Of a stretch of DNA of 21,955 nt, positions 1,426 through 21,955 are shown piece after piece. The position numbers and the translations under genes are program-made. This DNA comes from an uncultured beta proteobacterium (GTDB lineage Bacteria > Pseudomonadota > Gammaproteobacteria > Burkholderiales > Burkholderiaceae_C), in the NCBI GenBank assembly GCA_903927495.1, contig CAIYNH010000264.1, forward strand, positions 1 to 21,955, in the 5' to 3' direction. The notes beneath the pieces were generated by a model that was given only the letters and a program-made list of their open reading frames with translations, made no database searches and was not told where the DNA came from. Numbering within the stretch: position 1 is the first letter of the stretch; each line of letters begins with the position of its first letter.

Positions 1426-1436
1426 AAGAATCACGC

Positions 1437-2225: not shown

Positions 2226-2243
2226 CGATTATTTTTTATTAAC

Positions 2244-2248
2244 AGGAG
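2244..2248 (+). promoter_or_regulatory. Ribosome binding site of the ABC binding-protein gene
   Basis: AGGAG lies 6 bases before the ATG at 2255. It is one of the better Shine-Dalgarno sequences in the operon, as expected for a periplasmic binding protein made in excess over its permeases. Confidence 0.6.
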
Positions 2249-2254
2249 ACAGAC

Positions 2255-3427: not shown

Positions 3428-3439
3428 GTCGAAACTGGT

Positions 3440-4360: not shown

Positions 4361-4371
4361 AAAGTGCCCCA

Positions 4372-5367: not shown

Positions 5368-5370
5368 GTT

Positions 5371-6833: not shown

Positions 6834-6855
6834 GCGCACTTTGTTGAACACCAAT

Positions 6856-6861
6856 AAGGAG
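6856..6861 (+). promoter_or_regulatory. Strong ribosome binding site of the 99-residue protein gene
   Basis: AAGGAG lies 6 bases before the ATG at 6868. It decides the start: the in-frame ORF extends upstream to 6826, but nothing there has such a signal and that stretch overlaps the end of the LivF-type gene. Confidence 0.7.
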
Positions 6862-6867
6862 AATCCA

Positions 6868-7167
6868 ATGATCACTTTTGTTCGCCGGGTACGCATGCGC
6901 AACGGCTATTTTGTTGAGGCCATGGACTTGCTGAAGGCTCGCGTTGAATATATCGAAGCAACACACGGGATCAAAATTGAACTTCATGGCCGATTCGGCG
7001 GCCCGGTGGGAGAAGTAGCAATGGTCTCTCGCCATGAAGATGCGACCAACCTCGAATTGTTTCGCAAGAAAATATCTGCTGATGTGGCTTCCTCTGCACT
7101 TCTGAAAAAGCTGTCAGATTTCACAATCAGCGGTGAAACTTATGACGAAATTTGGATGAGTCAGTAA
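6868..7167 (+). CDS. Small unassigned protein, possible dimeric alpha/beta-barrel fold
   Basis: A 99-residue soluble protein with no signal peptide or membrane segment. I do not recognise a named family. The pattern of an N-terminal strand (MITFVRRVRMRNGYF), a helix with repeated charged residues (EAMDLLKARVEYIEATHG), a central GRFGGPVGEVAMV strand region and a final ISGETYDEIWMSQ resembles ferredoxin-like dimeric barrels of the ABM/NIPSNAP kind. That is a weak fold guess only. It is the last gene of the operon and has the best RBS in it, so it may be made in quantity. It is not the missing 4-oxalocrotonate tautomerase, which would be about 62 residues and begin with Met-Pro. A role in handling the imported aromatic compound is possible but unsupported. 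Confidence 0.7.
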   Translation: MITFVRRVRMRNGYFVEAMDLLKARVEYIEATHGIKIELHGRFGGPVGEVAMVSRHEDATNLELFRKKISADVASSALLKKLSDFTISGETYDEIWMSQ

Positions 7168-7191
7168 TTCGCACATTTTCCAAGTGATTTT

Positions 7192-7210
7192 TACGCATGA
7201 ACCATGCGTA
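7192..7210. repeat. Perfect 8-bp inverted repeat (TACGCATG / CATGCGTA)
   Basis: TACGCATG-AAC-CATGCGTA begins 25 bases after the stop codon of the 99-residue protein gene. The stem is perfect with a 3-base loop. It may act as a factor-dependent terminator or mRNA-stabilising stem for the + operon, or be a protein binding site. It lacks a following T tract on the + strand; the T run (GATTTTT) lies just before it. Confidence 0.5.
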
Positions 7211-7250
7211 GTTGCGCTAAAGCTGGCCTGCCAGCGCAGAGCATCCACAC

Positions 7251-7275
7251 GTTGCTTGCCATCGAGCAAAGCAAC
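7251..7275. repeat. Imperfect inverted repeat
   Basis: GTTGCTTGC and GCAAAGCAAC flank a 6-base loop, giving a 7-bp outer stem and a 2-bp inner stem with one bulged base. It sits in the gap between convergent genes and could help terminate transcription from either side, though no T tract follows. Confidence 0.4.
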
Positions 7276-7402
7276 CGCTACATTACCCATCGCAAGGAAC
7301 AGCGCCAATACCACCATCAAATCACAAGAAAAAGCCACGAAACGCAAGCCAGCGAAGAACGAGCAGCTATCAACACAGGATCATACCCAAGATCAACAAA
7401 CG

Positions 7403-8098
7403 CTAATCGTTGCTGATGGCCACGTTCAGGCAGAGCCGGTATCCCTGGCCACGGATGACCTTCAGGCTGGTTTCCTGGATGCCGGCTTGCAGAAATTTTT
7501 TGCGCAAACGCACAATTTGCACTTCCAAGGCTTTTTTGCCAGCTTCGGTCACCGATTTTTCGGTCATGGTCAGGAGTTGCCAGGTTTCAAGCTGTTGGTC
7601 TTTGGCGCGCACCAAGGCCGCCAACAGTGCAGCTTCGTGGTTTGACAGGCTGACAGTGCCTTGTGGACCATGCAGAGTTTGGCCGATCTGATTAAAAGTG
7701 CCAGCGCAGGGCCTCGGGTCTTCCGGCCTGATGCGCCGCGTAAGCGCACGCACGGCAGCCAGCAGTTCATCGGTGGAGGTGGGCTTGGTCAGGTAAATGT
7801 CGGCACCACTGTCATAGCCAGTCAGCCGGTCGCGGGGCTGCCCGCGCGCGGTGACCATGATGATGCCAATGTCAGGCTGCGCTGCGCGAATGCGCCCGGC
7901 CAGGCTCAAGCCGTCTTCACCCGGCAAGTTCAGGTCCACCACAAGCAGGTCGATTGGCGTGGGACCGGGCTCGTCAGAAAGCGCTTCGGCGCAGTCCACC
8001 CCCCGCACGTTGTGCCCGTGTTTACCCAGTGCCTCAACGGTAACGGCACGCAGTGCGTCGTGGTCTTCCACCACCACAATGTTCAGTGACTTGGTCAT
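7403..8098 (-). CDS. Response regulator, OmpR/PhoB family
   Basis: A 231-residue two-component response regulator. The receiver domain (about residues 5-118) has the acidic pair E11/D12, the phospho-acceptor D55 in LLVVDLNLPGEDG, T83 in MVTARG and K105 in LTKP. The C-terminal winged-helix DNA-binding domain (about 135-225) is recognisable from the SLSNHEAALLAALV start and the LKVIRGQGYRL end. It should bind DNA as a dimer after phosphorylation by the kinase encoded upstream on the same strand. The start is ATG with only a weak RBS. A 233-base gap to the kinase gene suggests it may have its own promoter or be subject to attenuation. Targets are unknown; the neighbouring pel operon is the obvious candidate, by position only. 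Confidence 0.92.
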   Translation of the reverse strand: MTKSLNIVVVEDHDALRAVTVEALGKHGHNVRGVDCAEALSDEPGPTPIDLLVVDLNLPGEDGLSLAGRIRAAQPDIGIIMVTARGQPRDRLTGYDSGADIYLTKPTSTDELLAAVRALTRRIRPEDPRPCAGTFNQIGQTLHGPQGTVSLSNHEAALLAALVRAKDQQLETWQLLTMTEKSVTEAGKKALEVQIVRLRKKFLQAGIQETSLKVIRGQGYRLCLNVAISND

Positions 8099-8331
8099 GT
8101 TTGCAAGCTTACCCCCGCTATGGGCGCGAAACCTACCAATACCTACAGACGGCTGATGCGATTTGAGCTGGGCACTTTCCTGTCTTGGGTGCAGGGTCGC
8201 TGTCGCTCAAAAGATGCGCGTCTTCAAAACACCGTTGCAGGGTCAGGACGGTGTTCGAAATACTTATTGTATTTGCCACATGCGCTTACTCAGCATACTT
8301 TAACCACTATATAAATGAGAGCAAATCGAGC
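8099..8331. other. Gap between kinase and response regulator genes
   Basis: A 233-base non-coding stretch lies between two genes of a presumed kinase-regulator pair, which are usually a few bases apart. It contains an 8-bp inverted repeat at 8228-8255. No clear sigma-70 promoter pair is visible for the regulator, and no coding frame resembles a known family. Confidence 0.55.
8228..8255. repeat. 8-bp inverted repeat between kinase and regulator genes
   Basis: AACACCGT at 8228-8235 and ACGGTGTT at 8248-8255 form a perfect 8-bp stem with a 12-base loop. Read on the - strand it lies 77 bases after the kinase stop and is followed by TTTGAAGA, a poor T tract. It could be a weak terminator or attenuator, or an operator for the regulator gene. 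Confidence 0.45.
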
Positions 8332-10614
8332 TCAGGTTGGCAACCACAATTCAAAGCAAACAAGCTCGGCAGTGGGCGCGTAACGGACCCAGCCTCCCAG
8401 TTGACGTGCCACTTTATCCACCAGGTACAGGCCCAGCCCAGAGCCAGTTTTCCTGTGGGCGCGTGGGCTACGGTAGTATTTTTTGAACACTTGGCTGGCA
8501 TCCGGCATACCGACGCTGCCGGGGGTATTGGCTACGCTGATCAGAATCCCGCTGCGGTGCCAGTTGCCATGTACTTTGGCGCTGATCTGCACCATGCTGC
8601 CAGCGGTGGCATATTTCTGTGCGTTGTCGATCAGGTTGCCGAGGGCAATGCTCAAAAGCTGGATGTCGCATTTGAAAATGGGCAGGTCGGCCACGCTGAT
8701 GTGCAGGGTTTGTGGTGCCGCGCAGCCCGCTTGCAGGTCCTCCAACAGATTAGGCAGGCAGCAGGGTAGTCGCTCATTAGCCTGGTTGCGATACTGCAGA
8801 CGGTCAGCTTGCAGGCAACGGTGAATGAGGGCATCTATGTCGTGCACGGATTGTTGGGCGTAGGCACGGGTGCTGTCCGACAGTACATCTTGCTCCAGCG
8901 CAATGCGCATTACCGAGAGCGGTGTTTTGAGCTCATGGCTGAGCATGGACATGAATTTGTCTTGCTCGTTGCGATGCCCGATTTCGACGGTCAGGAACCA
9001 CGCCAAAACCACCAAAATGCCCAACCCAATGAGTGAGCCTAACAAAGGCCACCGTACGCGCTCATGTAAGCTGGTCTTGAGGTCTGATAGCGAGAAACCG
9101 GTCACGATAACCAGAGGAAAACCGTCAATCTTCTTATAGACAAAGATCCTGGAAACGTCATCAACGGCGCTTTTGTTGTCATAAATGCCGGAGTCAGACC
9201 GGGACAATGCGTCCCACAAGGGAGATACAACCGGGGCTTGCCAGCGATCATCCTTAGGCTCTGGTACGCGCGCCAGTAATTTATGGTCAGCCACGTTGAT
9301 CAGGGAAGCGCTGTTTTGCGACTTGATGCCAAGTGCTCGGTAGTAGCGAGCGAAGGATTCGGGATTGATGGTGCACAAGATCACGCCTGCAAAGCTTCCG
9401 TCAGGGTTATTGATGCGTCGGGAAACTCGGAAGTGTTGCTTGCCTGTGACACGCCCAGCATCCACCGGGCTGATGAAAATTTGATCGCCGACGGTTGTCT
9501 GGTGAAACAAATAGTAGTCGCGGTCAGAGATGCTGCGGCCAAGCGCCGCCGGATCGTGGGAAATCACCAGTCGGGCCTGATCATCGGTAATATAGACGTT
9601 GTCGATAATCTCTCTGTCAAACGGCTGTATATTGATGAATTGCTCGGTGTCTGCCGCGGAGCGGGTGCGCATGTGGAAGCCGCGTACCGCATTCAAAACT
9701 GTATCGATCTGGGTGAAAATGAGCTTGGAATGGTTGGCAAACGCATCGTTGCTGAGTTGCACAGCCTGAGTTAACCGGGTCTGCTCCAGTTCGTATGATT
9801 TTGTGTAATACAAGCCAATTAGCCCGCCAATTCCGAGTACCAATATGATCACCGTCGCCCAGAGCAATTGCAGTTGGTTGTGGAAGTATTCAAAAAAATC
9901 AAAAAACGCCCGGCGCCCCTTCAGTCCAATTTGGAAAAATCGCGATGACTGATCGACCGTGATCCGGCGCAACTCCAACCAGACAATGCAAGCCGTAAAC
10001 AACGTGATCATGACGATGTACCAGAACACCGTGATCCATCTGGTCGGATTGGCACCGCGCAAAGCTACAGGGGCTTGCTCAGCCACCAGTGAATAAACGC
10101 CACGTACCGTCATCCAGACCGAAAAAACACCATACAGAGCGGCCAACGCGATGATCGGCACACGGCGCAAACTGGTGTGAATCGCGCGCATCAGCAAAAA
10201 AGGAATACGCACATTGATTGCTGCCGCAGCCAGTGAGAAAACTGCCGAGCGGTAGTTGCCGTTGGGCTCGATCAGGCCCCAATACCAAAAAGGCAGCGCA
10301 GTGAGCGCCACCACGCCCCAACCAAACCGATCAGTCTTGGGTTTTTGCTGCGCGCAAAAAGCGACGAAGCCGGAATACATCACCGCACCCGCCGAGATCA
10401 GGGCCATGTTGGTGCCGATGACCATCGACCATCGGGGTAGCACGGACCCGAACCCAGCGACGGTTAAGCCACCCGCAAGAATATAAATGCCGATGGCACA
10501 ATTTCGCAGCAGCCAACTGCCGGGCTGTAGGTAAGCAATAACCGTCATCAGCAGCGCAAGACCGATGCTTGAGGCACCGGCAATAAGGTAAAGCGTGAGT
10601 GTGTAGGGATCCAC
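8332..10614 (-). CDS. Membrane sensor histidine kinase with PDC-like sensor domain
   Basis: A 760-residue inner-membrane histidine kinase. The N-terminus has about seven hydrophobic segments (within residues 5-213). It is followed by a membrane helix at 250-270, an extracytoplasmic PDC/dCache-like domain at about 271-522 with the LGRSISDRDYY and VSRRINNPDGSFAGVI patterns, and a membrane helix at 523-543. The HisKA domain has phospho-acceptor H560 in MLSHELKTPLS; the HATPase domain has the N box GNLIDNAQKY and the G box GSGLGLYLVDK. There is no HAMP domain between the last helix and HisKA. The GTG start is the first available start after an in-frame stop, but no RBS is evident. It is transcribed divergently from pelA and precedes a response regulator gene. 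The ligand is unknown; PDC domains of this kind often bind small organic acids or amino acids. Confidence 0.92.
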   Translation of the reverse strand: MDPYTLTLYLIAGASSIGLALLMTVIAYLQPGSWLLRNCAIGIYILAGGLTVAGFGSVLPRWSMVIGTNMALISAGAVMYSGFVAFCAQQKPKTDRFGWGVVALTALPFWYWGLIEPNGNYRSAVFSLAAAAINVRIPFLLMRAIHTSLRRVPIIALAALYGVFSVWMTVRGVYSLVAEQAPVALRGANPTRWITVFWYIVMITLFTACIVWLELRRITVDQSSRFFQIGLKGRRAFFDFFEYFHNQLQLLWATVIILVLGIGGLIGLYYTKSYELEQTRLTQAVQLSNDAFANHSKLIFTQIDTVLNAVRGFHMRTRSAADTEQFINIQPFDREIIDNVYITDDQARLVISHDPAALGRSISDRDYYLFHQTTVGDQIFISPVDAGRVTGKQHFRVSRRINNPDGSFAGVILCTINPESFARYYRALGIKSQNSASLINVADHKLLARVPEPKDDRWQAPVVSPLWDALSRSDSGIYDNKSAVDDVSRIFVYKKIDGFPLVIVTGFSLSDLKTSLHERVRWPLLGSLIGLGILVVLAWFLTVEIGHRNEQDKFMSMLSHELKTPLSVMRIALEQDVLSDSTRAYAQQSVHDIDALIHRCLQADRLQYRNQANERLPCCLPNLLEDLQAGCAAPQTLHISVADLPIFKCDIQLLSIALGNLIDNAQKYATAGSMVQISAKVHGNWHRSGILISVANTPGSVGMPDASQVFKKYYRSPRAHRKTGSGLGLYLVDKVARQLGGWVRYAPTAELVCFELWLPT

Positions 10615-10721: not shown

Positions 10722-13511
10722 TTGCCGTTAAAAGTGAAATTCTTGAAAAATCTTCTGACTTTGTTGTTGACCTTGCTGGCTGGCTTTTGGGGCCCAAAGG
10801 TGTTAGCCTCGGCGGCGCTCAACAATCCAAACATTGCTTTCTTTTACGGTGCCAAGCCACCCTGGGCTGAACTACAGGCTTTTGATTTGGTTGTGGTGGA
10901 TCCGGGTCATGTGCCAGACCCGGCGCTGCCCAAGCTTGCGCATACCCGGTTGGCAGCGTATGTGGCAGTAGGCGAAGTGCAGCCGTCAAGGTCCTACGCG
11001 GCGCAGATTCCCAAGGCTTGGCTTGTAGGTGAAAACAAGGATTGGGGCAGTCGGCTGATTGATCAGTCGCAACCGCAATGGCCCAAATTCTTCACCGACA
11101 GCATCATTGCTCCGCTTTGGAACAGTGGCTATCGCACTTTTTTTCTGGACACCCTGGACTCTTACCACCTGTTTGCCAAAACCCCGCAAAAGCGGGCGGC
11201 CCAGGAAGCCGGCATGGTGGCCGTGATCGATGCCGTCAAGCAGCGCTACCCGGAAGTCCGGTTTATTTTCAACCGGGGTTTTGAAATACTCGGGCGCACT
11301 CACCAGCACATCGAGTCGGTGGTTGCAGAGTCTTTGTTTCAGGGGTATGACGCGGGCAAGGCCAAATACAAGGTGGTGCCGCCAGAAGACCGGGAATGGT
11401 TGCTAGGGCAACTGCGACGCGCCAAAGACGAGTACCGCTTGCCGGTGGTGGTGATTGATTACGTACCTTCGTCAGAGCGGGAGTTGGCCCGCAAAACTGC
11501 CAAACGCATCATGGATTTGGGCTTTACTCCGTGGGTGGCAACGCCTGATTTGGGCACCTTGGGGGTGGGCGCGATTGAGGTCATGCCACGAAAAGTGCTG
11601 GTGGTGCATAGCACGATGCGGGATGAATATGCGCTTCGCATGAGTGAGTCGGTTCGGTTTGGCGCGATGCCACTCAACTACCTGGGCTATGTGCCAGAGT
11701 ATGTCGACGCACAGCATTTGCCAATTCACCTTCTGGCAGGTCGCTACGCGGGTGTTGTGGTGTGGTTAACAGATGATGTCAGCGCGGCTGTTCGCACCAA
11801 TTTACTGGATTGGCTTGAAGCTCAGACACGGGAAAAACTCCCGATCGTACTGCTCAACCCGCCTTTTTTCTTGCTCGACAGCGGCCTTGGCAAGACGCTG
11901 GGGCTGGTCATTGGGACTGCAGGCGCCAGCTCTGATCCTGTAGAGATCATCCAGCAAGACAGCATGATGGGTTTTGAGCGGACCCCCTCCAGGGCACCCG
12001 ATGCTTTCTTCCCGATGGCCATCGAGAATGGCAGCCCACTCTTGACCCTGAAGCAGGGTGCGCAGCAGCAGGTTGTCGCTGCCATAACGCCGTGGGGAGG
12101 CTTCATTCTGGATCCTTACAGTGTGATTACGCTGCCCGGCGGTAATGGAAATCGCTGGGTCACGGATCCTTTCGCTTTTTTTAGTCAGGCGTTGCAGCTG
12201 CCAGTTATGCCTGTGCCCGATGTCAGCACTGAAAACGGCCGCAGATTACTCATGGTGCACATGGACGGAGACGGTTTTATCAGTCGCTCAGAATTGGCTG
12301 GCAACCCCATGGCCGGCGAGGTTGTGCGTGACCGGGTGGTTCGTAAGTATCCGCTGCCAATGACGATGTCGGTGATTGAGGCTGAAATTTCACCAACCGG
12401 TTTGTACCCTGGCTTATCCGGAGTAGCTGAAAGGGTAGCGAAAGAAATTTTCAAAGAAGCCAACGTTGCCATTGCCTCACACAGTTTTTCGCATCCATTT
12501 ATTTGGCGAAAGGCCAGCGCCAGTGATGCCGTTGAGGGCTATAACTTGCGCTTGCCAGGGTACAAGTTCGATTTGCAGCGTGAAATTGAGGGCTCGATCC
12601 GATATATCGAGGAACGCCTGGCACCCAAAGGCAAAAAAGTAGACATGTTTTTATGGACTGGCGACTGCATTCCTGGCAGCGATGCGCTGGCCTGGACTGA
12701 AAAACTGGCGGTGCTTAACATGAATGGTGGCGACACCGTAGCCACCCGCTCACAACCCACGGTGACGCAGGTGGAAGGTTTGGGTGTCCCGCGGGATGGC
12801 GGGTTTCAGGTTTTTGCACCGAATCAAAATGAAAACGTCTATACCAACAATTGGCAGGGTCCGTTTTATGGCTTTGAGCGCGTTATCGAGACCTTTGAGC
12901 TGACCGAGGCACCACGCCGACTCAAACCCATTGACATCTATTTCCACACCTACCTGACCACCAAGCGCGCTGGCATGCAGTCACTGGACAAGGTGTTTGC
13001 CTACGCGTTGGCGCAAGAAACAACACCGGTATTTGTCTCTGAATATGCGCGCAAGGTTCTTGATTTTCAGCACCTGGCAATTGCCCGAACCGCAACCGGT
13101 TGGCGTGTGCGTGGTGCAGGTGGAGTGCGCACGCTGCGAATTCCGGCCTCGCTGGGCTGGCCAGATCTGGCACAAGGCGAGGCGGTGGCTGGTTTTGCAA
13201 ATTTCCAGAACGATCGTTTTGTTCACCTGAGCGCTGACGCGGCTGAGCTGGTACTGACTGCGAGCGAGTCAAGCGGGCTCCATTTGGTTTCGGCCAACGC
13301 CAGGCTTGAACATTCGGAGCGCCTATCCAACGGTTTTCGCTGGAATTTATCGGGCCATGTGCCACTCAAATTCACGCTGGCCCACACCCAGGCGTGTCGG
13401 GTGCGCGCGGGGGGGCGCGAGCTGACACCCGTGCGACAAACTGCCGGTTTTAGCCACTTCGAGATCAAAGACCATGCTGCCAGACCGCTCGAAGCGATAT
13501 GCCGGGGCTAA
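10722..13511 (+). CDS. pelA: PelA, Pel polysaccharide hydrolase/deacetylase
   Basis: A 929-residue periplasmic enzyme, close to the roughly 948 residues of Pseudomonas PelA. A signal peptide is visible (LLTLLLTLLAGFWGPKVLASA). The N-terminal glycoside hydrolase domain (about 35-290, GH114/GH166-like) has FFLDTLDSYH (D143, D146) and a candidate catalytic glutamate E203 in VVAESLFQGYD. A middle Rossmann-like region follows. The polysaccharide deacetylase domain has D515 and D517 in HMDGDGF and H587 and H591 in SHSFSHPF. The D-to-H spacings (70 and 74) equal those of the known D530, H600 and H604 metal site. The C-terminal part is probably a beta-rich carbohydrate-binding domain. It deacetylates and trims Pel (GalNAc-rich) polymer during export. 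The start is uncertain: TTG at 10722, or GTG at 10734, which gives a neater signal peptide. The 3' end overlaps pelB-N by 38 bases. Confidence 0.96.
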   Translation: MPLKVKFLKNLLTLLLTLLAGFWGPKVLASAALNNPNIAFFYGAKPPWAELQAFDLVVVDPGHVPDPALPKLAHTRLAAYVAVGEVQPSRSYAAQIPKAWLVGENKDWGSRLIDQSQPQWPKFFTDSIIAPLWNSGYRTFFLDTLDSYHLFAKTPQKRAAQEAGMVAVIDAVKQRYPEVRFIFNRGFEILGRTHQHIESVVAESLFQGYDAGKAKYKVVPPEDREWLLGQLRRAKDEYRLPVVVIDYVPSSERELARKTAKRIMDLGFTPWVATPDLGTLGVGAIEVMPRKVLVVHSTMRDEYALRMSESVRFGAMPLNYLGYVPEYVDAQHLPIHLLAGRYAGVVVWLTDDVSAAVRTNLLDWLEAQTREKLPIVLLNPPFFLLDSGLGKTLGLVIGTAGASSDPVEIIQQDSMMGFERTPSRAPDAFFPMAIENGSPLLTLKQGAQQQVVAAITPWGGFILDPYSVITLPGGNGNRWVTDPFAFFSQALQLPVMPVPDVSTENGRRLLMVHMDGDGFISRSELAGNPMAGEVVRDRVVRKYPLPMTMSVIEAEISPTGLYPGLSGVAERVAKEIFKEANVAIASHSFSHPFIWRKASASDAVEGYNLRLPGYKFDLQREIEGSIRYIEERLAPKGKKVDMFLWTGDCIPGSDALAWTEKLAVLNMNGGDTVATRSQPTVTQVEGLGVPRDGGFQVFAPNQNENVYTNNWQGPFYGFERVIETFELTEAPRRLKPIDIYFHTYLTTKRAGMQSLDKVFAYALAQETTPVFVSEYARKVLDFQHLAIARTATGWRVRGAGGVRTLRIPASLGWPDLAQGEAVAGFANFQNDRFVHLSADAAELVLTASESSGLHLVSANARLEHSERLSNGFRWNLSGHVPLKFTLAHTQACRVRAGGRELTPVRQTAGFSHFEIKDHAARPLEAICRG

Positions 13512-14349
13512 CGGCGATATTCCACGGCTGGTGCTGGCTGCCAATTGGCAACTGGCGCTGATAGCGCTGCTGGTGCTGGCTTTGTTGACGGTTATTTTTC
13601 CGCGCAAAGCGCTGGTTGAAAAACTCTACAAGCAAGAGTCATTGGATGAGCTGACCTTGTCATATATCCAGAATCTTTACCGCTCGGACACCAAAAATGC
13701 CGATGTCGCGCTGCTTTTGGCCAGATCGCAGCAAGATGTTTTGGACATTGACGCGCTTGAATCGATCCTATTGAAATTGGCCACAGAGGGTGATGAAAGA
13801 CAGCGCGTAGAAGCGCGAATCATGCTTTTTGATGCGTACAACCGGGACATGGAGCGACGCCCGCAGGACGTGATTCTTGCGTCGCACTTGATCGAGTTGA
13901 TGCAAAACGCCCAGAAAGATGAATTACCAGAGCGGCTGGCAAACGAGTTTGCCAGCAAGGCGTTTCAACTTAATCTACCAAAACTCGGTTTGGTGTTTTT
14001 CCAGAAAGTGAACGCCGGGCAACCGGCAGTAATACTTGAAAAGTATGGCAGTCTGGCACTTGGCGAGGGTCATCACGCAGTAGCTGCCAACTATTTTTTA
14101 CTGGCACGCGAAAGCGCCACGACGCTGGAGGAGTCCCGGCGACTTTTCCAATTGGGCATTGACACCTACATGGCGGCCAGCTTGTTCAAAGAAGCTATGC
14201 TGGAGGCCAGACAGCATCTGGGAAACCTAGCAGAAGACTCGTCAATTTTGCGGTTCCTTTCGCATACTGCTTTGGCCGCAGGTAACTTGGCGCAGGCGGC
14301 TGAATATGCCCGCAAATTGGTGTTTCGAACAAGCTCAAGCGAATCATGA
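13474..14349 (+). CDS. pelB: PelB N-terminal part: inner-membrane-anchored TPR protein
   Basis: A 291-residue protein with a short basic cytoplasmic N-terminus, one membrane helix at about 25-42 (QLALIALLVLALLTVIFP) and a periplasmic helical-repeat region. The sequence right after the helix (PRKALVEKLYKQESLDELTL) is like the start of single-chain PelB. Helix-turn-helix repeats of TPR type are suggested by paired stretches such as LANEFASKAFQLNLPKLGLV and FLSHTALAAGNLAQAAEYAR. In Pseudomonas the same protein continues through TPRs to an outer-membrane barrel; here it ends and the next gene begins in an ATGA overlap. It should act as an inner-membrane scaffold that recruits PelA. The start lies inside pelA (38-base overlap) without a strong RBS. 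The assignment to PelB rests on position, topology and pattern. Confidence 0.8.
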   Translation: MLPDRSKRYAGANGDIPRLVLAANWQLALIALLVLALLTVIFPRKALVEKLYKQESLDELTLSYIQNLYRSDTKNADVALLLARSQQDVLDIDALESILLKLATEGDERQRVEARIMLFDAYNRDMERRPQDVILASHLIELMQNAQKDELPERLANEFASKAFQLNLPKLGLVFFQKVNAGQPAVILEKYGSLALGEGHHAVAANYFLLARESATTLEESRRLFQLGIDTYMAASLFKEAMLEARQHLGNLAEDSSILRFLSHTALAAGNLAQAAEYARKLVFRTSSSES

Positions 14350-17300
14350 GGAGCAGGGTTTTACTGGCAATAACCGTCTTTACGGCCTGGCTACCAGCCC
14401 TGGCCAGCAGTCCGCTGGCGCAGGGGCAGGACTATTACTCACTGCAAATTGCCAGTAGCCAGAATATCCAGGTGTTAAAAGCCATTTATCAGCGCTACGT
14501 GCAGTTACCACACGTTCGTATTGAGCGGCGCGGCAAGCTGTATGTGCTTCGTGCCGGCTTTTGGGAAGACATGAAGGCCGCACAGACCAGCCTGTCTGAG
14601 GCTCGGGTGGATGCCACACTGATTCGTTTGGCGGCCTATCGCCCCCAAGCAATTGTCCAGCGCAACTGGCAGGAGTCGCAGCCCGGCACGGTGGTGAGAC
14701 AAGGCGCAGGACCGGCCCGTGAGGCCAGAAGCAAATTGGTGCTGGAGCCGCCCGATCTGACACCACCACCGGAGCCGATGCCTGCACCGCTGCCGAGTCC
14801 GCCACCGCCAGGGAGCCGACCAGCGTCCGAGGTGAAAACAGTCCCAGGCAATGCCAAAGATAAGGAGACTTTGCGGCCCTTCGACGAAGCCGACTTTGCC
14901 CTGGCTTTTGACGTGTTGGTGGGTGCTGGCGATTTGGGGCGGGCTTTTCAGATCGCCCAGCGGGCTGTTCAAACCACCCCCGAGAGCGACAGTTGGCGGC
15001 TCAAACTGGCGCATATCAGCGAGTGGACCCAGCACCCCGAGCTTGCTGGCGAACAATGGTTGGCACTGTTTCAGCGTGGAAATCGTTCGGCCGAGGTGGT
15101 TTCTTCGGTGATACGTTTGGCACCCTTGGTCGACAAGCCGATGTTGGCAGTGCAGGCTTGGGCTTTTCGGTCAGAAAAGACCCCCTTGACGGAGGCGCAA
15201 TGGCGCGACATTTTTAATCTTTACGAGAATGCCTCCGAGCCCACGAAGGGGTCACTATTTTTCGAGACGCAATTCAAAGCCAAAAAGCAATCCCAGTTGC
15301 TCGAATATGCGGCCCGCTTGGCTGAAAACGCGGGCGACGATGAGCGAGCGCAAGCACTTTACCAGCAACGGGCGAGCCTGGCACCTTTTTCGATGGCAAT
15401 GGTGTTGCGCGCAGTGGTGAACCTGGTCAGACGCGACAAATTACCCCAGGCCCTGGCCTTGATGCAAAAGCACGACCAACAGGTGCCGGCAGAGGCCTTT
15501 GAGTATTGGCGATTGTTGAGCCAGATTGCCTGGGATGCCGGTCAATACGGTGTTGCCAAGGATGCCTATCAGAGGTATGCAGCCTTGCCGCAGGCAAACT
15601 CAGGTGACTGGTCACGTCTGATTTTTCTGGTTCGCCAAAATCACCCGTCTGAGGCCGCCGATTTATCGCTTGCGGCATTTCGACGCTTTGGCCTCATGGA
15701 GCAATTACTGCATGCTTTGGGCATCTATGCCGAGTTGGGCGATGTGGCGGCCCAAGCCCGCATTTTTAATTCACTGGATGCCAAAACAACAGCCGAAGCG
15801 CAGCAGGTGGTTCGCTTCCTGATGTTGCGTGCACAATTTTACCAGCGCCAGAAGACCATCGAATTGGCATGGTTGGACTTGCGCCGGGCGCTGCAAAAGA
15901 GTCCTCGCGAAAAAGATGTTGTGCTGGCCAATTTATGGTTCTTGATTGATGGTCAGCACAAAGATCTGCTTGCCACTTTTTTGAAAAATCATGCTTCACT
16001 GGCCTCGCGCGACCCGGCCTATTGGTTGGCCTATGCGGCTGCAAACCAGACTTTGGAGCGCCATCCGGATGCTGTGCATTGGTACGGCAAAGCGGTCACA
16101 CTGCATGCAGACGAACCGCTGATGTTGTTGAACTATGCCGACGCATTGGAGCGGATCAACCGGGTGGGAATGGCCGAGCGCCTGCGCCGCCATGCCTGGT
16201 TGCAACTCAAGGCAAAGTATCCGGGCGCGCCAACCTTTAAGGATTTGGGTCAAAACGCTGAGTTGCTGACGTTTGTCCGCCTGGCGCTGCTGAATCGGCC
16301 GGGCGACACGGGCCATGAGCTGGTACGTCAATTGGTCACCCAACTGCGTGGTTTGTCTACCGACCCGATCGACGAACCGACCTTGGCCCTGGTGTTGGGC
16401 TGGTCGATCTTGAAAGAACAGTATGAGAACGCACGAGCCTGGATGTGGCGGCGCTATGCCCAACAGACGCAGTTGGCCGCTCCGTTGTGGGGACAAAGTC
16501 AGACTGCGTTGCAGCTCAAAGACACGCACACCATGGCGCACTTGCTCAGCACCAGCTCCAAGGGCATGCCGATCTACAACCGCTATGACACGGCCTTTGA
16601 GCTGGGGTATGCGCAGCAGGCGCTAGACACCGCCTTCGAAGGCATGACGCAGCATGAGGATGAATCTTTGTATGAGCGGTTTCGCCAGCACGCGCCAGCG
16701 CAAGCGCATTATTTGCAGTTACGCGCCTGGGCCGATAACCAGGGGACTTTGGACAGTCGGGGGCTGCAATTTGAAACCCAGTTGGCAATCAACTCCCGAT
16801 TGCGCGTGGTGCTCAATTGGTCTCGCGCTCAGCAGTCCAGTACTGAGCCAGTTCTTGCGTCATTGGCACCGACATCGGACCAACTTGGCAGCATTCAGGC
16901 CCGCTGGCAGGGCTCACGCGGACTCTCCACTGTGACCTTGTTTCGGCGTGAAGAGTTGAGCGGCTTGGCCGGTTTTCGCCTGAGCCAGAGTTATCAGTGG
17001 GGTGCCCGGTTGAATCTTGAGGCTGGGCTGGATTTTCGGAACCAACCCAGCGCGAGTCAGCCTTTGCGGCTTGCAGGATACGAAAACAGCCTGTATGCCA
17101 GCCTTGGCTATAGCCTTGGCAAACGCGAATACTGGCGCCTGGCTCCACATTTCTCCAGCTATTACACGCAGTTTGGTGATTATTTGGGCACTGGTCGCCA
17201 GCTTGATATGGAGGCCGGGTATCGGATACGAACTGAATATCCAGATTGGCGAATTCGGCTCTTTGCCACGCATCAGCGGTTTTCCAGAGATGGCAGCCTG

Positions 17301-17663
17301 AGTGCAGCTTCGGCTGCCCACCTGCCCCTTGGTTTCCAGACTTTTCTGGCCAGTGGCATTGTTGACCCGCTGGCCTATTTCATTCCCGAAGGCAGCACCA
17401 CTTGGGGTGCTTGCCTTGGCATGGGGGAAAACCTGGGTGGGCAAAATTTGCAAACCGTCTATTCACGCGCTTGGCGACCATTTGCTGACCTCTGCATCAA
17501 CCATAATACTTCGACCGGCAACGGTTACAACGGCACGCTTGGTGTTGCCGGATCTTTAATGGGCGAAGACCACTTGCAAATGCAATTGCAAAACAGCGAC
17601 GGGGTGATGCCGGGAAGCGCTCCGACAAATTCATTGGCCATTCGTTACCGGCATTATTATTAG
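14346..17663 (+). CDS. pelB: PelB C-terminal part: SPOR-like domain, TPR repeats and outer-membrane barrel
   Basis: A 1105-residue secreted protein. A Sec signal peptide has a likely cleavage after A20 (TAWLPALA). A SPOR-like domain spans about 29-100 (YYSLQIASSQNIQVLKAIYQ, then KLYVLRAGFWEDMKAAQTSL). A proline-rich linker covers about 134-160. TPR-type repeats fill about 175-800, for instance WLAYAAANQTLERHPDAVHW and MLLNYADALERINRVGMAER. A C-terminal porin-like barrel covers about 810-1105, with alternating strands and a terminal aromatic residue (LAIRYRHYY). It should form the outer-membrane export channel of Pel polysaccharide with PelC. The signal peptide and SPOR-like block are not part of single-chain Pseudomonas PelB (about 1193 residues). 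Its start overlaps the stop of the previous gene through ATGA. Confidence 0.88.
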   Translation: MRSRVLLAITVFTAWLPALASSPLAQGQDYYSLQIASSQNIQVLKAIYQRYVQLPHVRIERRGKLYVLRAGFWEDMKAAQTSLSEARVDATLIRLAAYRPQAIVQRNWQESQPGTVVRQGAGPAREARSKLVLEPPDLTPPPEPMPAPLPSPPPPGSRPASEVKTVPGNAKDKETLRPFDEADFALAFDVLVGAGDLGRAFQIAQRAVQTTPESDSWRLKLAHISEWTQHPELAGEQWLALFQRGNRSAEVVSSVIRLAPLVDKPMLAVQAWAFRSEKTPLTEAQWRDIFNLYENASEPTKGSLFFETQFKAKKQSQLLEYAARLAENAGDDERAQALYQQRASLAPFSMAMVLRAVVNLVRRDKLPQALALMQKHDQQVPAEAFEYWRLLSQIAWDAGQYGVAKDAYQRYAALPQANSGDWSRLIFLVRQNHPSEAADLSLAAFRRFGLMEQLLHALGIYAELGDVAAQARIFNSLDAKTTAEAQQVVRFLMLRAQFYQRQKTIELAWLDLRRALQKSPREKDVVLANLWFLIDGQHKDLLATFLKNHASLASRDPAYWLAYAAANQTLERHPDAVHWYGKAVTLHADEPLMLLNYADALERINRVGMAERLRRHAWLQLKAKYPGAPTFKDLGQNAELLTFVRLALLNRPGDTGHELVRQLVTQLRGLSTDPIDEPTLALVLGWSILKEQYENARAWMWRRYAQQTQLAAPLWGQSQTALQLKDTHTMAHLLSTSSKGMPIYNRYDTAFELGYAQQALDTAFEGMTQHEDESLYERFRQHAPAQAHYLQLRAWADNQGTLDSRGLQFETQLAINSRLRVVLNWSRAQQSSTEPVLASLAPTSDQLGSIQARWQGSRGLSTVTLFRREELSGLAGFRLSQSYQWGARLNLEAGLDFRNQPSASQPLRLAGYENSLYASLGYSLGKREYWRLAPHFSSYYTQFGDYLGTGRQLDMEAGYRIRTEYPDWRIRLFATHQRFSRDGSLSAASAAHLPLGFQTFLASGIVDPLAYFIPEGSTTWGACLGMGENLGGQNLQTVYSRAWRPFADLCINHNTSTGNGYNGTLGVAGSLMGEDHLQMQLQNSDGVMPGSAPTNSLAIRYRHYY

Positions 17664-17671
17664 GACTGACT

Positions 17672-18220
17672 ATGAAGCAAATCAAAAATAGACTGCTCTG
17701 TCTGCTTGTTCTCGTGCTGGTGGGCTGCTCAACAGCCATTCAGTCTACAGCAGAGCATGAGGCGCTGGATGCGCAGGCCAAGTGGGCGCTGTTGCCGATC
17801 ACCAACAATACCGACACGCCGCAGGCGGGTCTTTCTGCCGAGGCGATGGTGGAACATCTCTTGCACCGACAAGGTATTACCGAACTGCTGCACTACCCCG
17901 CAGCACTGTCACGCGATAGCCTTTTTGAGCCAACTGAGCGCAAGGTCACCGAAGAGGCCCAAAAATGGGCCCGTGAGCAAGGTGTGCGCTTCGCTGTGGT
18001 AGGCAGTGTCGAAGAGTGGCGCTATAAGGTCGGAATTGACGGTGAACCTGCCGTAGGCGTAACTTTGAAAGTACTTGACTTGTCCAACGGGCGCCTGGTG
18101 TGGAGTGCTTCTGGTGCTAAAAGCGGCTGGAGTCGTGAGGCACTCTCCGCGGTAGCGCAAACACTTCTGGGTAATTTGCTGGCCAGCATGCGTTTGACGG
18201 TCTCAAAACCTGGCAACTAA
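17672..18220 (+). CDS. pelC: PelC outer-membrane-associated lipoprotein
   Basis: A 182-residue lipoprotein, near the 172 residues of Pseudomonas PelC. A basic N-terminus and hydrophobic stretch lead to the lipobox LVLVGC with the lipidated cysteine at residue 19. In Pel systems PelC forms a dodecameric ring on the periplasmic side of the outer membrane that guides the cationic polymer to the PelB channel. Conserved tryptophans of the family may correspond to W144 (LVWSASG) and W153 (SGWSREA), but I cannot align them here. The gene starts 8 bases after the pelB stop, with AGGA in the spacer. Confidence 0.92.
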   Translation: MKQIKNRLLCLLVLVLVGCSTAIQSTAEHEALDAQAKWALLPITNNTDTPQAGLSAEAMVEHLLHRQGITELLHYPAALSRDSLFEPTERKVTEEAQKWAREQGVRFAVVGSVEEWRYKVGIDGEPAVGVTLKVLDLSNGRLVWSASGAKSGWSREALSAVAQTLLGNLLASMRLTVSKPGN

Positions 18221-18229
18221 TCAGTCAAC

Positions 18230-19597
18230 ATGGCGCGTTGGAATGTCTCTAAATTGTTCAAACGCCTTTTGAGGCTGGACTCTTTGGCAACTCAGGAGGT
18301 GAGTTCCCAAACGCATTGGCTCGAAATTTCCGTGATTGCTTTGGGTGCCGTGGGCTTGGCCTGGCTGGCCCGACCACACGACCCTACCTTGATGGCCGCG
18401 CGCTTTCCCTGGCTTTGGGTGGCACCCATTGTCATTTCTCTACGCTACGGCGTCATGCCCGGTCTTTTAGGCAGCATTCCCTTGATTGCGAATGAATGGG
18501 TAGCTTCGCAGATGGGACGGGTTTCGGGTGATTTCTCTGCTGAGTCTTTTTTTGGTGGTGGGCTACTGACGCTGATATGTGGCGAGTTCAGTGATGTGTG
18601 GCGCGACCGGAACAAACGCATGGAGGAAACCTATCTGTACGTTACCGAGCGTTTGTCGCGCTTGACCAAAAGACATTTGTTGCTTAACTTGTCTCATGAC
18701 CGGCTTGAGCAGGAGATGCTGGCACGACCTGGTTCATTGCGTGATGCTTTGGCACGCCTGCGCACCATTGTCATGGACGCAAAACGACAGGACGGGCCGA
18801 TGCCAGGTGCTGCCGGACTGTTGCAGTTGCTGTCGCAATACGTGAACATCGAATCAGCCGCGATCTATACCTTGAAGCCTAAGTCAGGGACTTATATTCT
18901 TGGCAAATGTGTTGCCAGCCTGGGCGACCCGGATGACCTGTCACCTACCGATGAATTGCTGCGCCTGGCTCTTGAAAAGGGCACTTTGGCGCATATCGCC
19001 GGTGAAGACATCAGCCTGAACCGCCACACCCAACAACTGGTTGTGGCACCATTGGTAGCGGGAGAAACCGGCCTGGTCGGCGTACTTTCTGTCACACGCA
19101 TGCCTTTTTTCTCATTGAATGTGGAAAACCTGCAAATGATGCTGGTCATGCTGGGATATTTTGCCGACAACCTGGGGGCCGCAGCGGGTGTCATCAATAT
19201 CCAGCAACGCTTGCCTGCGATGCCGGTTCTATTTGCCCAGGAATTGGCATGCATGATCCGGATGCAGGAAAAAATAGGTATTTCAAGTCACATCGTTGTC
19301 ATGCATTTAGGCGGCCAGCGACGCCAGGAAATCACCACTGAATTTCTTCGCATCAAGCGTGGCCTCGACCTCTATTGGCAAACGTACGTGCAAGACAAGC
19401 CAATGTTGGCGATTCTTATGCCGTTTACATCCGCATCTGCGAAAGACGGATTTTTGCAGCGCATCGAAGCCTGGTTGCAACATCGATTCCAGGGCAACTT
19501 TGACGCATTGGGGATTCAACTGCGCATTATCAACTTTGAGTTTGAAGACCCGTTGACTGCGCTCTGCCAGTGCGTCAATGGTGATATGACCCCATGA
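18230..19597 (+). CDS. pelD: PelD, inner-membrane c-di-GMP receptor
   Basis: A 455-residue protein, the same length as Pseudomonas PelD. It has several membrane segments within residues 33-125, a helical connector (about 125-185), a GAF domain (about 190-310) and a degenerate GGDEF domain (about 320-450) that lacks an active-site GGDEF. The c-di-GMP inhibitory-site motif RxxD is present as R377-G-L-D380, with a second arginine at R411. The 34-residue distance nearly matches the 35 between R367 and R402 in Pseudomonas. Binding of c-di-GMP here activates Pel synthesis post-translationally through PelF. Start ATG at 18230, 9 bases after the pelC stop, has no clear RBS. The stop overlaps the pelE start through ATGA. 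Confidence 0.95.
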   Translation: MARWNVSKLFKRLLRLDSLATQEVSSQTHWLEISVIALGAVGLAWLARPHDPTLMAARFPWLWVAPIVISLRYGVMPGLLGSIPLIANEWVASQMGRVSGDFSAESFFGGGLLTLICGEFSDVWRDRNKRMEETYLYVTERLSRLTKRHLLLNLSHDRLEQEMLARPGSLRDALARLRTIVMDAKRQDGPMPGAAGLLQLLSQYVNIESAAIYTLKPKSGTYILGKCVASLGDPDDLSPTDELLRLALEKGTLAHIAGEDISLNRHTQQLVVAPLVAGETGLVGVLSVTRMPFFSLNVENLQMMLVMLGYFADNLGAAAGVINIQQRLPAMPVLFAQELACMIRMQEKIGISSHIVVMHLGGQRRQEITTEFLRIKRGLDLYWQTYVQDKPMLAILMPFTSASAKDGFLQRIEAWLQHRFQGNFDALGIQLRIINFEFEDPLTALCQCVNGDMTP

Positions 19598-20634
19598 GTT
19601 CGTTCTTTTGGGTTGTGCTCGCCGTCATTGCCGATTTGGCGCTGATGCTGAGCCCGCAGATTGTCTCGAAAGACCTGTCGGCATTCCTATTGATGCTATT
19701 GGGTCATGTGATGGTGTGCGTGGTTGTGACGAGCGCCACCCACCCTATGCTGCCGACCCGTTATCGGCACCCCAAGCGCTTTGTCTGGATGCTGATTTTC
19801 TGCTTTGCATTTGTCGCGCCGGTGGTAGGTGCTATTGGTTTGATACTGATTACCCGTTTCAGCTTGCGCCTTACCGGGGAAAATGCGCTTTATGCGGTAC
19901 CGGTATCCGTGGGTTTGCCCGAGTACGATATTCAATTCAAGGAAGGGCATCGAGGCACCCAAGGTGCCATTCGGTCTCGCTTGAGGACCGAAGTTCCGAG
20001 CGAGGTGCGGATGCAGTCGCTGCTGACCTTGCAAGCCGTCCCCAACAAGGTTTCCAACCCCATTTTGGAAGAACTGCTGGGTGACACGACAGACGATGTA
20101 CGATTGGTCGCTTTTGGAATGCTGGATTCAGAAGAAAAGAAAATTTCCAAGCAAATCAGAAATGAGACGGCTATTCTGACAGGTAACTTGACACTGGAAC
20201 AGCGCTACGATTGCTTGCGCCATCTTGCCGAACTGAACTGGGAACTGATCTACGCATCCCTGGCCCAAGGAGAGTTGCGCCGGCACATTTTGGGCCAGGC
20301 GCGTCAATATGTTGATGCGGCATTGACCACAGGTACGCCTCTTGATTCAGGGTTGGTATTCCTGAAGGGGCGCATTCTGCTGGAGCAGGGCGACATAGCC
20401 GCCGCAGAAGATGCCATACAGCAAGCTATGGCGCTTGGACAGTCGATTACTTCAGCGCTTCCCTACCTGGCAGAGATGGCTTTTCTACGTCGCGATTTTG
20501 CAGCCGTGAAGCAATTGATGCAGCAAGTTTCCAAGCTCAACTTGGCTTCACATACCCGGGCCATCGAAGACTTTTGGGTCAAAAGACACAACGAGATTAA
20601 TTTCAGTGACCGTCGCTACCTCCCCCACATCTAA
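19594..20634 (+). CDS. pelE: PelE, inner-membrane TPR protein
   Basis: A 346-residue inner-membrane protein, slightly longer than the 329 residues of Pseudomonas PelE. It has about three hydrophobic segments in residues 1-90, followed by a soluble helical-repeat domain; the TPR pattern is clearest near GLVFLKGRILLEQGDIAAAE and LPYLAEMAFLRRDFAAVKQL. In Pel systems PelE joins PelD, PelF and PelG in the membrane synthase complex. The ATG lies in an ATGA overlap with pelD, and the 3' end overlaps the pelF start by 29 bases. No defect is visible. Confidence 0.9.
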   Translation: MSSFFWVVLAVIADLALMLSPQIVSKDLSAFLLMLLGHVMVCVVVTSATHPMLPTRYRHPKRFVWMLIFCFAFVAPVVGAIGLILITRFSLRLTGENALYAVPVSVGLPEYDIQFKEGHRGTQGAIRSRLRTEVPSEVRMQSLLTLQAVPNKVSNPILEELLGDTTDDVRLVAFGMLDSEEKKISKQIRNETAILTGNLTLEQRYDCLRHLAELNWELIYASLAQGELRRHILGQARQYVDAALTTGTPLDSGLVFLKGRILLEQGDIAAAEDAIQQAMALGQSITSALPYLAEMAFLRRDFAAVKQLMQQVSKLNLASHTRAIEDFWVKRHNEINFSDRRYLPHI

Positions 20635-21955
20635 GCCCAGATTTCCAAAATCGGAAAACGTGGACGTTTTGCTGCTTCTTGAAGGCACGTTCCCATTTGT
20701 AGCGGGTGGCGTTTCAAGTTGGGTAAACCAAATTATTCGGGGGTTCCCGGAAATTCGATTTGGTGCCATTTTCTTGGGAAGTCGCCCCGAGGACTACGGT
20801 GATTTACGCTATCAATTGCCAAATAACCTGGTACATCTGCAAACTGCTTATCTGTTTGAGGATAAAGAAAACCCACCGGTCATGCCGGTGCGTGCGCCTG
20901 CTGGCGCGATGTCGATGGTCGAACACATGCATGAATTGTTTGAGACCAACATTCGCGAACCGAATTGTGGAAAGTTGTTTTCTGAATTGATGGATGAGGC
21001 CGGGCCGGATGGTCAACTCAGTCATCAAGTTTTCTTGTACAGCAAAGCCTCTTGGGAATTTATCAAGAAGTGCTATAGACAACGTAGTACGAATCCCTCG
21101 TTTGTGGATTATTTCTGGACGATTCGCACCATTCACACCCCCTTCTGGCGACTTCGTGAGGTCGCATTGAAATGCCCGAAAGCCAGGATTTATCATTCCG
21201 TTTCCACCGGATACGCCGGTATTTTGGGGGTCTTGCTAAAGCATCGCAATCACCGGCCTTTCATGCTCAGCGAACACGGAATTTACGTCAAAGAGAGAAA
21301 AATTGACCTCTATCAGGCGCAGTGGCTGAAAGATAATCGTGGAGTTTTTGACCGTGACCCCTCCCGAGTGAGTTATTTCCGGCAACTTTGGATACGCTTT
21401 TTTGAGCACTTGGGCTACGTTACCTATCAGGCGGCCGACGACATCATTGCACTGTACGAAGCGAATCGGCAAAGGCAACTGCTCGATGGTGCTCCGCAAG
21501 AACGGACCGCAAATATTCCCAATGGCATTGATGTTGCCCGATTTTCGCCACTGCGAAATTTGCGCACCGAAAAGATTCCGCAAGTGCTGTGCCTGATTGG
21601 TCGCGTGGTGCCTATCAAGGACATCAAAACATTCATTCGAGCCATGCGCACCGTGGTCAATCACTTGCCTGATGCAGAGGCATGGATCGCCGGGCCCGAG
21701 GATGAGTCGCCCGAGTATGCACAGGAATGCCACGAAATCGCCGATCAACTGGGTCTGACAGACAAAGTGAAGTTTTTGGGATTTCAGCAACTCACAAACC
21801 TGTTACCCAAAGTGGGACTGGTGGTGCTCAGCTCAATCAGTGAAGCGCTACCGCTGGTCATTTTGGAAGGCTACGCCGCAGGTGTGCCCACACTATCAAC
21901 GGATGTCGGTTCGTGCCGGCAACTGGTGTTCGGTTTACCGGGTGAGGACGAGGCA
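20606..21955 (+). CDS. pelF: PelF glycosyltransferase (GT4), 3' end beyond window
   Basis: This open frame runs from a GTG at 20606 to the window edge, giving 450 of the roughly 507 residues usual for PelF. The start gives MTVATSPTSKPRFPKSENVD before the first strand VDVLLLLEGTFPFVAGGVSS. That short polar leader is what PelF proteins normally have, and no other in-frame start fits. Family markers are LLLEGTFPFVAGGVSSW, MLSEHGIYVKERK, NIPNGIDVARF, CLIGRVVPIKDIKTFI and the GT4 EX7E motif at E413 and E421. PelF is the cytoplasmic transferase that uses UDP-activated hexosamine and works with the c-di-GMP-bound PelD complex. It overlaps pelE by 29 bases, so its translation is probably coupled. pelG should follow outside the window. 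Confidence 0.94.
   Translation, partial: MTVATSPTSKPRFPKSENVDVLLLLEGTFPFVAGGVSSWVNQIIRGFPEIRFGAIFLGSRPEDYGDLRYQLPNNLVHLQTAYLFEDKENPPVMPVRAPAGAMSMVEHMHELFETNIREPNCGKLFSELMDEAGPDGQLSHQVFLYSKASWEFIKKCYRQRSTNPSFVDYFWTIRTIHTPFWRLREVALKCPKARIYHSVSTGYAGILGVLLKHRNHRPFMLSEHGIYVKERKIDLYQAQWLKDNRGVFDRDPSRVSYFRQLWIRFFEHLGYVTYQAADDIIALYEANRQRQLLDGAPQERTANIPNGIDVARFSPLRNLRTEKIPQVLCLIGRVVPIKDIKTFIRAMRTVVNHLPDAEAWIAGPEDESPEYAQECHEIADQLGLTDKVKFLGFQQLTNLLPKVGLVVLSSISEALPLVILEGYAAGVPTLSTDVGSCRQLVFGLPGEDEA

Follow-up and report, generated by a model that had tools for sequence, protein, structure and literature searches.

PelB of the Pel exopolysaccharide system appears to be cut at one place in several bacterial lineages

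The closest described relatives of the genes analysed here are single-chain PelB proteins, such as those of P. aeruginosa (PDB 9h80) and of Burkholderiales, with which they share a TPR region, a 16-strand barrel, a hydrophobic N-terminal helix and a place between pelA and pelC. Fission of pelB in aquatic thermophiles was already mentioned in 2020 (legend of Fig. 5 iii in PMC7112194). There too pelB is reported as split, but the lineage is a different one, and the available part of that paper does not give the break position, signal peptides, a SPOR domain or repeated origin. Our literature search found no report of the joint at which PelB is split, of the recurrence of the split or of a SPOR domain on PelB.

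The window (the whole stretch of DNA analysed, 21,955 nucleotides) is the entire contig C264; the draft genome to which this contig belongs is fragmented and 75.6% complete. The window carries a split pelB surrounded by pelA, pelC, pelD, pelE and the start of pelF, and the position of pelG is expected past the contig end. The features are:

10722..13511, forward strand: pelA, 929 aa, GH114 domain at 72 bits; the last 38 bases of the gene are shared with pelB-N
13474..14349, forward strand: pelB-N, ATG start, 291 aa
14346..17663, forward strand: pelB-C, ATG start, 1105 aa, the secreted outer-membrane half
14346..14349, forward strand: ATGA, made up of the pelB-C start codon and the pelB-N stop codon
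14346..14405, forward strand: signal peptide of pelB-C, residues 1-20, rule-based
14427..14639, forward strand: SPOR-like domain (Pfam PF05036), about residues 28-98
14634..14867, forward strand: proline-rich disordered linker, residues 97-174, pLDDT <50
14886..16703, forward strand: TPRs and additional helices of pelB-C, residues 181-786, from Pfam and the AlphaFold model
16698..17657, forward strand: barrel, PF24604 at 224.9 bits (cut-off 31), 16 strands modelled at residues 789-1104
17672..18220, forward strand: pelC
18230..19597, forward strand: pelD, PF16963 at 85 bits
19594..20634, forward strand: pelE
20606..21955, forward strand: 5' part of a gene that we take to be pelF from its position, interrupted by the contig end; DUF3492 at 309 bits, glycosyltransferase group 1

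In most loci examined, a pelA homologue lies 5' of pelB and a pelC homologue 3' of it. The locus encodes no single polypeptide spanning both membranes; there are two genes with separate targeting signals. The preliminary description of this DNA had reported open reading frames of 291 and 1105 aa overlapping by ATGA, which are present as described, and its view that the two are real genes whose products are targeted by separate signals was borne out. N-half and outer-half genes are adjacent and joined by an NTGA overlap of stop and start codons in 20 of the 21 named split loci. By eye, no Shine-Dalgarno sequence was evident directly 5' of the ATGA in the window. To judge from sequence, the frequency of the stop/start overlap points to coupled translation of split pelB. 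The suggestion that the inner-membrane half could be regulated independently is so far without support; these overlaps favour coupling instead.

We aligned both proteins to a PelB profile of 1226 positions that was built from 34 single-chain PelBs only. PelB-N matches positions 2-289 (158 bits, E 6e-47) and PelB-C positions 306-1226 (720 bits), so the 291-aa protein is indeed related to PelB and the two halves tile the single chain without overlap, as the preliminary description had supposed. The split site is a joint between helix blocks, the only joint in the TPR region that varies widely in length among single chains (4-114 residues; standard deviations of 26 and 36 in two sets, versus at most 5.9 in other stretches of the TPR region). 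The joint is 11 residues or shorter in 20 of the 47 single chains of one set, including those of the P. aeruginosa type, which have almost no linker there; a linker at the joint is therefore not universal in single chains. In the single-chain protein L071, pLDDT is low at 312-322. The 50 matches listed for a fold search with the N-terminal model of a single chain are all helical-repeat proteins with no relation to Pel.

The fragmented state of the draft assembly from which the window comes and the frameshift-like breaks that occur among relatives (L059 and the second break of L077) would both suit a sequencing error, a frameshift or a decaying pseudogene. However, a PelB barrel was found in 7 of 89 genus genomes (window included) and the split layout is identical in all seven, which settles the doubt about a frameshift. 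In a search that admitted only lengths near that of the query, 268 N-half homologues were found, and 119 of the 120 listed are 285-298 aa long; 119 of the 120 end at profile position 288-296. The outer half of the window has its own signal peptide by our rule, as do the outer pieces in general (12/13 tested, the exception being L058, versus 0/2 frameshift controls). In comparison with L127 the dN/dS values are 0.06 for pelB-N, 0.09 for pelA and 0.13 for pelB-C, and in comparison with L054 they are 0.18 for pelB-N and 0.09 for pelA; pelB-N is thus under purifying selection. Recurrence and purifying selection together lead us to reject an artefact or pseudogene, the likelihood of which we regard as negligible, and the sequencing error that the preliminary description had allowed for is not the source of the two frames.

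PelB-N consists of a hydrophobic helix (about residues 24-42) followed by the first helical block of PelB, so that both of these elements of the single chain are present on a separate protein. A Pfam scan of PelB-N found no TPR above the cut-off, and a single-sequence PDB search returned no PelB; we assign a TPR nature to PelB-N because of its profile match to single-chain PelBs. By analogy with P. aeruginosa PelB, the helix is probably an uncleaved inner-membrane anchor. Of 12 split N halves, 8 (that of the window among them) have a cleavage site within the N-terminal helix according to an A-x-A rule; since it flags this helix, the rule cannot settle cleavage there and was not used for that argument.

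The AlphaFold model of PelB-C (mean pLDDT 81, pTM 0.50) has PelB as its best PDB fold match (9h80_M, TMt 0.81), and residues 175-618 align to residues 281-722 of P. aeruginosa PelB (E 4.8e-22). Pfam analysis of the isolated stretch and the AlphaFold model uphold the earlier reading of the extra N-terminal block of PelB-C as a SPOR-like domain plus linker. PF05036 scores 20.0 bits on the full-length protein (cut-off 21) and 25.3 bits when the stretch is scanned alone; in full-length relatives the score is above the cut-off for P0125 (25.9) and P0134 (29.2) and below it for P0121 (20.3). AlphaFold predicts a bab-bab fold (strand 30-38, helix 41-50, strands 58-62 and 65-73, helix 76-85, strand 94-98) with pLDDT values of 51-77 in blocks of 10 residues. 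When the SPOR profile was compared with the PDB, the sole SPOR chain was DamX (E 0.11), ranked under matches of similar weight to LidA (E 0.04-0.16) that look like chance and were discarded. Residues 106-170 of the linker are 32% identical to those of L127. The SPOR-like domain and disordered linker are often found on the outer-membrane half in the clade of the window. Nevertheless, SPOR is missing from four of the seven split genus members and is therefore not essential to the split form.

The preliminary description had proposed a survey for split forms, and several lineages have them, among them Rhodoferax and its kin and Moraxellaceae; overlapping start and stop codons and own signal peptides recur among these forms. 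Breaks that were frameshift-like or unclear (L059, the second break of L077, L111, L156, L169 and L175) were left unmended and not counted as splits. On a tree of PelA plus PelB the split state requires four changes, a count that does not separate gain from loss, and placing all split forms in one clade is rejected by the AU test (p=0.0003). On a PelB-only tree (66 rows, mixture model) one split clade, comprising 4 genus rows and 9 class-level rows including L078 and the truncated L085, was not rejected (p=0.267), and a PelA-only tree (57 rows, no Moraxellaceae) has two changes and is compatible with one origin. A single origin is thus rejected on the larger tree, and the smaller ones leave room for fewer origins.

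Most likely, split PelB is a two-part trans-envelope conduit in which the covalent link is dispensable. Both genes would be translated from one mRNA on which the stop codon of the first overlaps the start codon of the second, pelB-N yielding a helical (TPR-type) stub anchored in the inner membrane and pelB-C a TPR-barrel exporter of the outer membrane with its own signal peptide. Together the halves would conduct Pel, once it leaves the PelDEFG synthase, past PelA and on to the outer membrane, meeting in the periplasm either end to end or loosely. Where present, the SPOR-like domain perhaps tethers the conduit by keeping the outer half on peptidoglycan, which would make up for the missing covalent connection to the inner membrane. 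We give a probability of about 0.7 to this best explanation as a whole, namely that PelB is here divided at its natural joint and that its halves jointly replace single-chain PelB as the Pel conduit.

It is possible, but in our judgement unlikely, that the halves never dock, PelB-N being only an inner-membrane subunit of the synthase and PelB-C a free exporter like PgaA or BcsC, held by SPOR where that domain is present. The signal peptide and long disordered linker of PelB-C would fit such an arrangement, as would the loose geometry implied by the variable joint of single chains, and the highest conservation in PelB-N is in the first 15 residues, preceding the helix (3.65 bits), as a contact with the synthase would give. 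However, those residues are encoded in the overlap of pelA and pelB-N, which may itself produce their conservation; the end of the helical block is still conserved (2.55-2.66 bits, with 0.59 bits in the tail), and the adjacency and codon overlap of the two genes also speak against this reading.

A rather improbable alternative is that the split is older than some single chains, an ancestral two-protein PelB having been fused in Gallionellaceae and other relatives, with the linker as the scar of an old signal peptide. Some single-chain linkers do have a hydrophobic stretch ending in A-x-A (e.g. L071, L167, L171 and L190), and a weight matrix applied to 95 chains, near-duplicates among them, placed the best signal-like site of 17 chains in the joint, versus 3.7 expected by length. 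Yet linker scores reach at most 9.1, whereas even the weakest of the 28 signal peptides used for training scored 10.7; a crude rule had set several of the cleavage sites in the training set, and alanine-rich linkers inflate the scores. A stricter signal rule matched once in 1850 linker residues versus 12 times in 31502 TPR residues, and the tree counts are blind to direction. Given the negative strict rule and the low, composition-biased scores, the idea that single-chain linkers contain a relic or an internal signal peptide was rejected and is kept as a lead only. Still more doubtful, taken jointly, is the idea that PelB is in essence a pair of subunits, one a TPR cap in the inner membrane that belongs to the Pel synthase and the other an exporter in the outer membrane, with a coupling that can be lengthened, cut or replaced; in the Rhodoferax type a SPOR tether would replace it and place Pel export on new or septal peptidoglycan, and some single chains with signal-like linkers may be cut after synthesis.

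Among known systems, PgaA and BcsC resemble PelB-C in being secreted TPR-barrel outer-membrane proteins, BcsC being its second PDB fold match, and neither is known to have a separate inner-membrane TPR partner of the PelB-N kind. The SPOR-like domain resembles those of DamX and FtsN in its Pfam match and bab-bab fold. DamX and FtsN are division proteins, whereas the domain here is on an exopolysaccharide exporter and, if it binds peptidoglycan, would connect biofilm secretion to the places where the cell wall is being remodelled. Compared with single-chain PelB, the window has two proteins and a second signal peptide, and part of its clade has a SPOR-like domain and linker besides. If the split bacteria export Pel, covalent continuity is dispensable, and the split pair permits docking tests that are impossible with one chain of ~1200 residues.

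The window spans an entire contig of a draft genome (75.6% complete), on which pelA, pelB-N, pelB-C, pelC, pelD, pelE and the 5' part of pelF follow one another in the same direction. The preliminary description had read the second and third of these as a PelB encoded by two overlapping genes, each with its own targeting signal, and both genes are present as claimed:

13474-14349, same direction as pelA, pelB-N, putative inner-membrane half of PelB, 291 aa
14346-17663, same direction as pelA, pelB-C, secreted TPR-barrel half of PelB, 1105 aa

The end of pelB-N and the start of pelB-C share the overlap ATGA. Pfam finds TPRs and the PelB barrel (224.9 bits, cut-off 31) in PelB-C, and residues 281-722 of P. 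aeruginosa PelB align with its residues 175-618. The identity of PelB-N rests on profiles, because this half alone had no PelB match in a single-sequence PDB search and no TPR above cut-off in a Pfam scan. On a profile of 34 single-chain PelBs from related genomes (1226 positions), PelB-N occupies positions 2-289 (158 bits, E = 6e-47) and PelB-C positions 306-1226 (720 bits). The halves tile the profile with zero overlap and a 16-position gap. Divergent from pelA lies a histidine kinase gene with a dCache-like sensor match (8332-10614, minus strand); further upstream (388-6833, plus strand), genes for a DmpG-like aldolase and an FAA-hydrolase family enzyme, together with those for an ABC transporter of the branched-chain amino-acid type, probably serve the uptake and breakdown of aromatic compounds.

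The PelB barrel is present in seven of 89 genomes of the window's genus, the window's included (two of the 50 with at least 90% completeness and at most 5% contamination), and all seven are split alike (the window and the related pel loci L054-L056 and L127-L129), which rules out a sequencing error. A database search, admitting only lengths near the query's and scoring the 7998 best candidates, returned at least 268 PelB-N homologues, among which single chains therefore cannot show; among the 120 matches listed, the window's own being one, 119 are 285-298 aa long and one 454 aa, and 119 end at profile positions 288-296. Purifying selection acts on pelB-N: dN/dS against L127 is 0.06 for pelB-N, 0.09 for pelA and 0.13 for pelB-C, and against L054 0.18 for pelB-N and 0.09 for pelA, values that are rough because dS is high (1.2-2.3). 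The most conserved block of PelB-N, residues 1-15 (3.65 bits), could contact cytoplasmic machinery; the end of pelA overlaps the first 12 codons of pelB-N, and this overlap alone could explain the conservation.

Split and single-chain forms both occur among related loci. In a first set of 67 (window included, L084 left out as a duplicate), 13 were split and had either an overlapping start or a separate signal peptide. In 12 of them the N half stops at profile positions 286-294 and the following piece starts at 277-323, the one other break being that of L058 (434/442). A simple A-x-A cleavage-site rule for signal peptides was passed by 12 of the 13 outer pieces tested (L058 failed; L087 was read by eye) and by neither of two frameshift controls. 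The second set, the best 80 of 577 named loci fetched through PelA, overlaps the first, at least six of its split loci being from genomes found in both. It held 48 single complete chains, 21 split loci (L148 cut by its contig end), three broken or unclear (L156, L169, L175), four cut by contig ends and four without any PelB piece. Split loci among these 80 belong to Rhodoferax, other Comamonadaceae, Hylemonella, a Sterolibacterium-labelled draft genome, HGW-Gammaproteobacteria-1 and Moraxellaceae (Fluviicoccus, Agitococcus and two UBA genomes); single chains belong to Ralstonia, Cupriavidus, Acidovorax, Xylophilus, Delftia, Azonexus, Sideroxydans and others. An ATGA, GTGA or TTGA overlap joins the pieces in 20 of the 21 (in L144 and L148 picked among several in-frame starts), and L132 has a nine-base gap instead. 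L080 (genome G711, reverse strand, 4907-8918) encodes a three-protein PelB (286 + 547 + 504 aa) with ATGA overlaps and rule-based signal peptides on the last two proteins; its second break lies between TPR region and barrel (profile 762/819), a place also insert-rich in single chains. In L057 (G358, reverse strand, same family), a short 634-aa PelB (profile 657-1165) adjoins a 317-aa pelA piece, a pel locus that is reduced or decaying.

Two single-chain sets, of 47 and 48 chains and partly from the same genomes, were compared across profile positions 289-317. They hold 4-114 and 7-114 residues there, with standard deviations of 36 and 26, whereas the other TPR-region windows do not exceed 5.9 and 3.7; 20 of the 47, Pseudomonas-type chains among them, have at most 11. 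Among the 34 chains of the profile, position 306 has the largest inserts of the TPR region (21 rows, 17 with at least 6 residues, maximum 80). In an AlphaFold model of residues 1-700 of L071, the single chain best matching PelB-N among the related loci (E = 2e-27), two confident helical blocks are predicted, and pLDDT is below 50 only at 1-21 and 312-322. The break therefore coincides with the only joint of the PelB chain that varies in length. Seven single-chain linkers (L071, L073, L157, L164, L167, L171, L190) carry a hydrophobic stretch ending in AxA (VPAAQA, SAHA), a resemblance to worn signal peptides that is suggestive only.

A tree of PelA and the PelB C-terminal region (66 hand-picked rows, 28 split; 1658 columns, LG+G4, quick search) has four changes of the split label, all forced by well-supported branches; because the root was not inferred, such counts cover fission and fusion alike and give no direction. 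The Rhodoferax-type clade with HGW-Gammaproteobacteria-1 forms one split group (16 rows), sister to single-chain Gallionellaceae; the others are Moraxellaceae (four rows), a class-level clade (seven rows) and L078. AU tests rejected uniting all split rows in a single clade (p = 0.0003) and joining the Rhodoferax-type clade with Moraxellaceae (p = 0.003) or with the class-level clade (p = 0.019). In the PelB-only tree, however, a grouping similar to this last one was not rejected (p = 0.267), and the PelA-only tree allowed a single origin. The PelB-only tree has four label changes counting truncated rows and three without them, and in it L058 (G309, 659-4428, pieces joined by ATGA) adjoins its single-chain relative L062. 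On the tree of PelA and the PelB C-terminal region, the closest single-chain relatives are Gallionellaceae and not other genera of the window's family; together with the patchy barrel in the genus, many of whose genomes are incomplete, this makes horizontal transfer of 10722-20634 possible.

The window's PelB-C contains a SPOR-like domain followed by a disordered linker (residues 106-170, 32% identity to L127). Pfam SPOR was matched by isolated stretches of all eight aligned sequences, the window's included (E up to 1), and precomputed PF05036 is found in seven of 20 relatives retrieved with PelB-C residues 1-200. With a small profile made from the retrieved relatives, the domain was detected in 10 of the best 80 of 577 loci. 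Every one of the ten is a split PelB-C from the Rhodoferax-type clade, and no single chain among the 80 has it; for one of the ten, L142, the domain is absent from the Pfam listing. The domain is accessory, because four of seven genus members lack it: the window, L054 and L127 carry it, and it is missing from L055 and L056 (Pfam) and from L128 and L129 (sequence reading only).

The locus encodes two targeted proteins from adjacent genes, which tile single-chain PelB and are under constraint. The stop/start overlap may allow both to be made in step; PelB-N would take the polymer at the synthase and pass it to PelB-C, which would act with PelA and PelC and, where SPOR is present, might be tethered to peptidoglycan.

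The two-gene PelB is a well-supported variant, and pelB fission as such was mentioned in 2020 in a figure legend (PMC7112194). The available part of a 2018 study of the pel operon in Acidithiobacillus thiooxidans (PMC5852609) does not mention a split pelB, and we found no description of the joint, separate signal peptides, SPOR domain or repeated splitting in the accessible portion of the open-licence literature. Mapped through a Pseudomonas-type chain, the break corresponds to residue ~280 of P. aeruginosa PelB, upstream of residues 332-436, for which PelA binding is reported in the available text of PMC12141448. The model outlined in the accessible part of PMC12022489 assigns polymer guidance to TPRs 1-9 and PelA binding to TPRs 9-14/15. 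Because of this model and the position of the break, the first polymer-guiding repeats would stay with the inner half and the PelA-binding repeats with the outer half.
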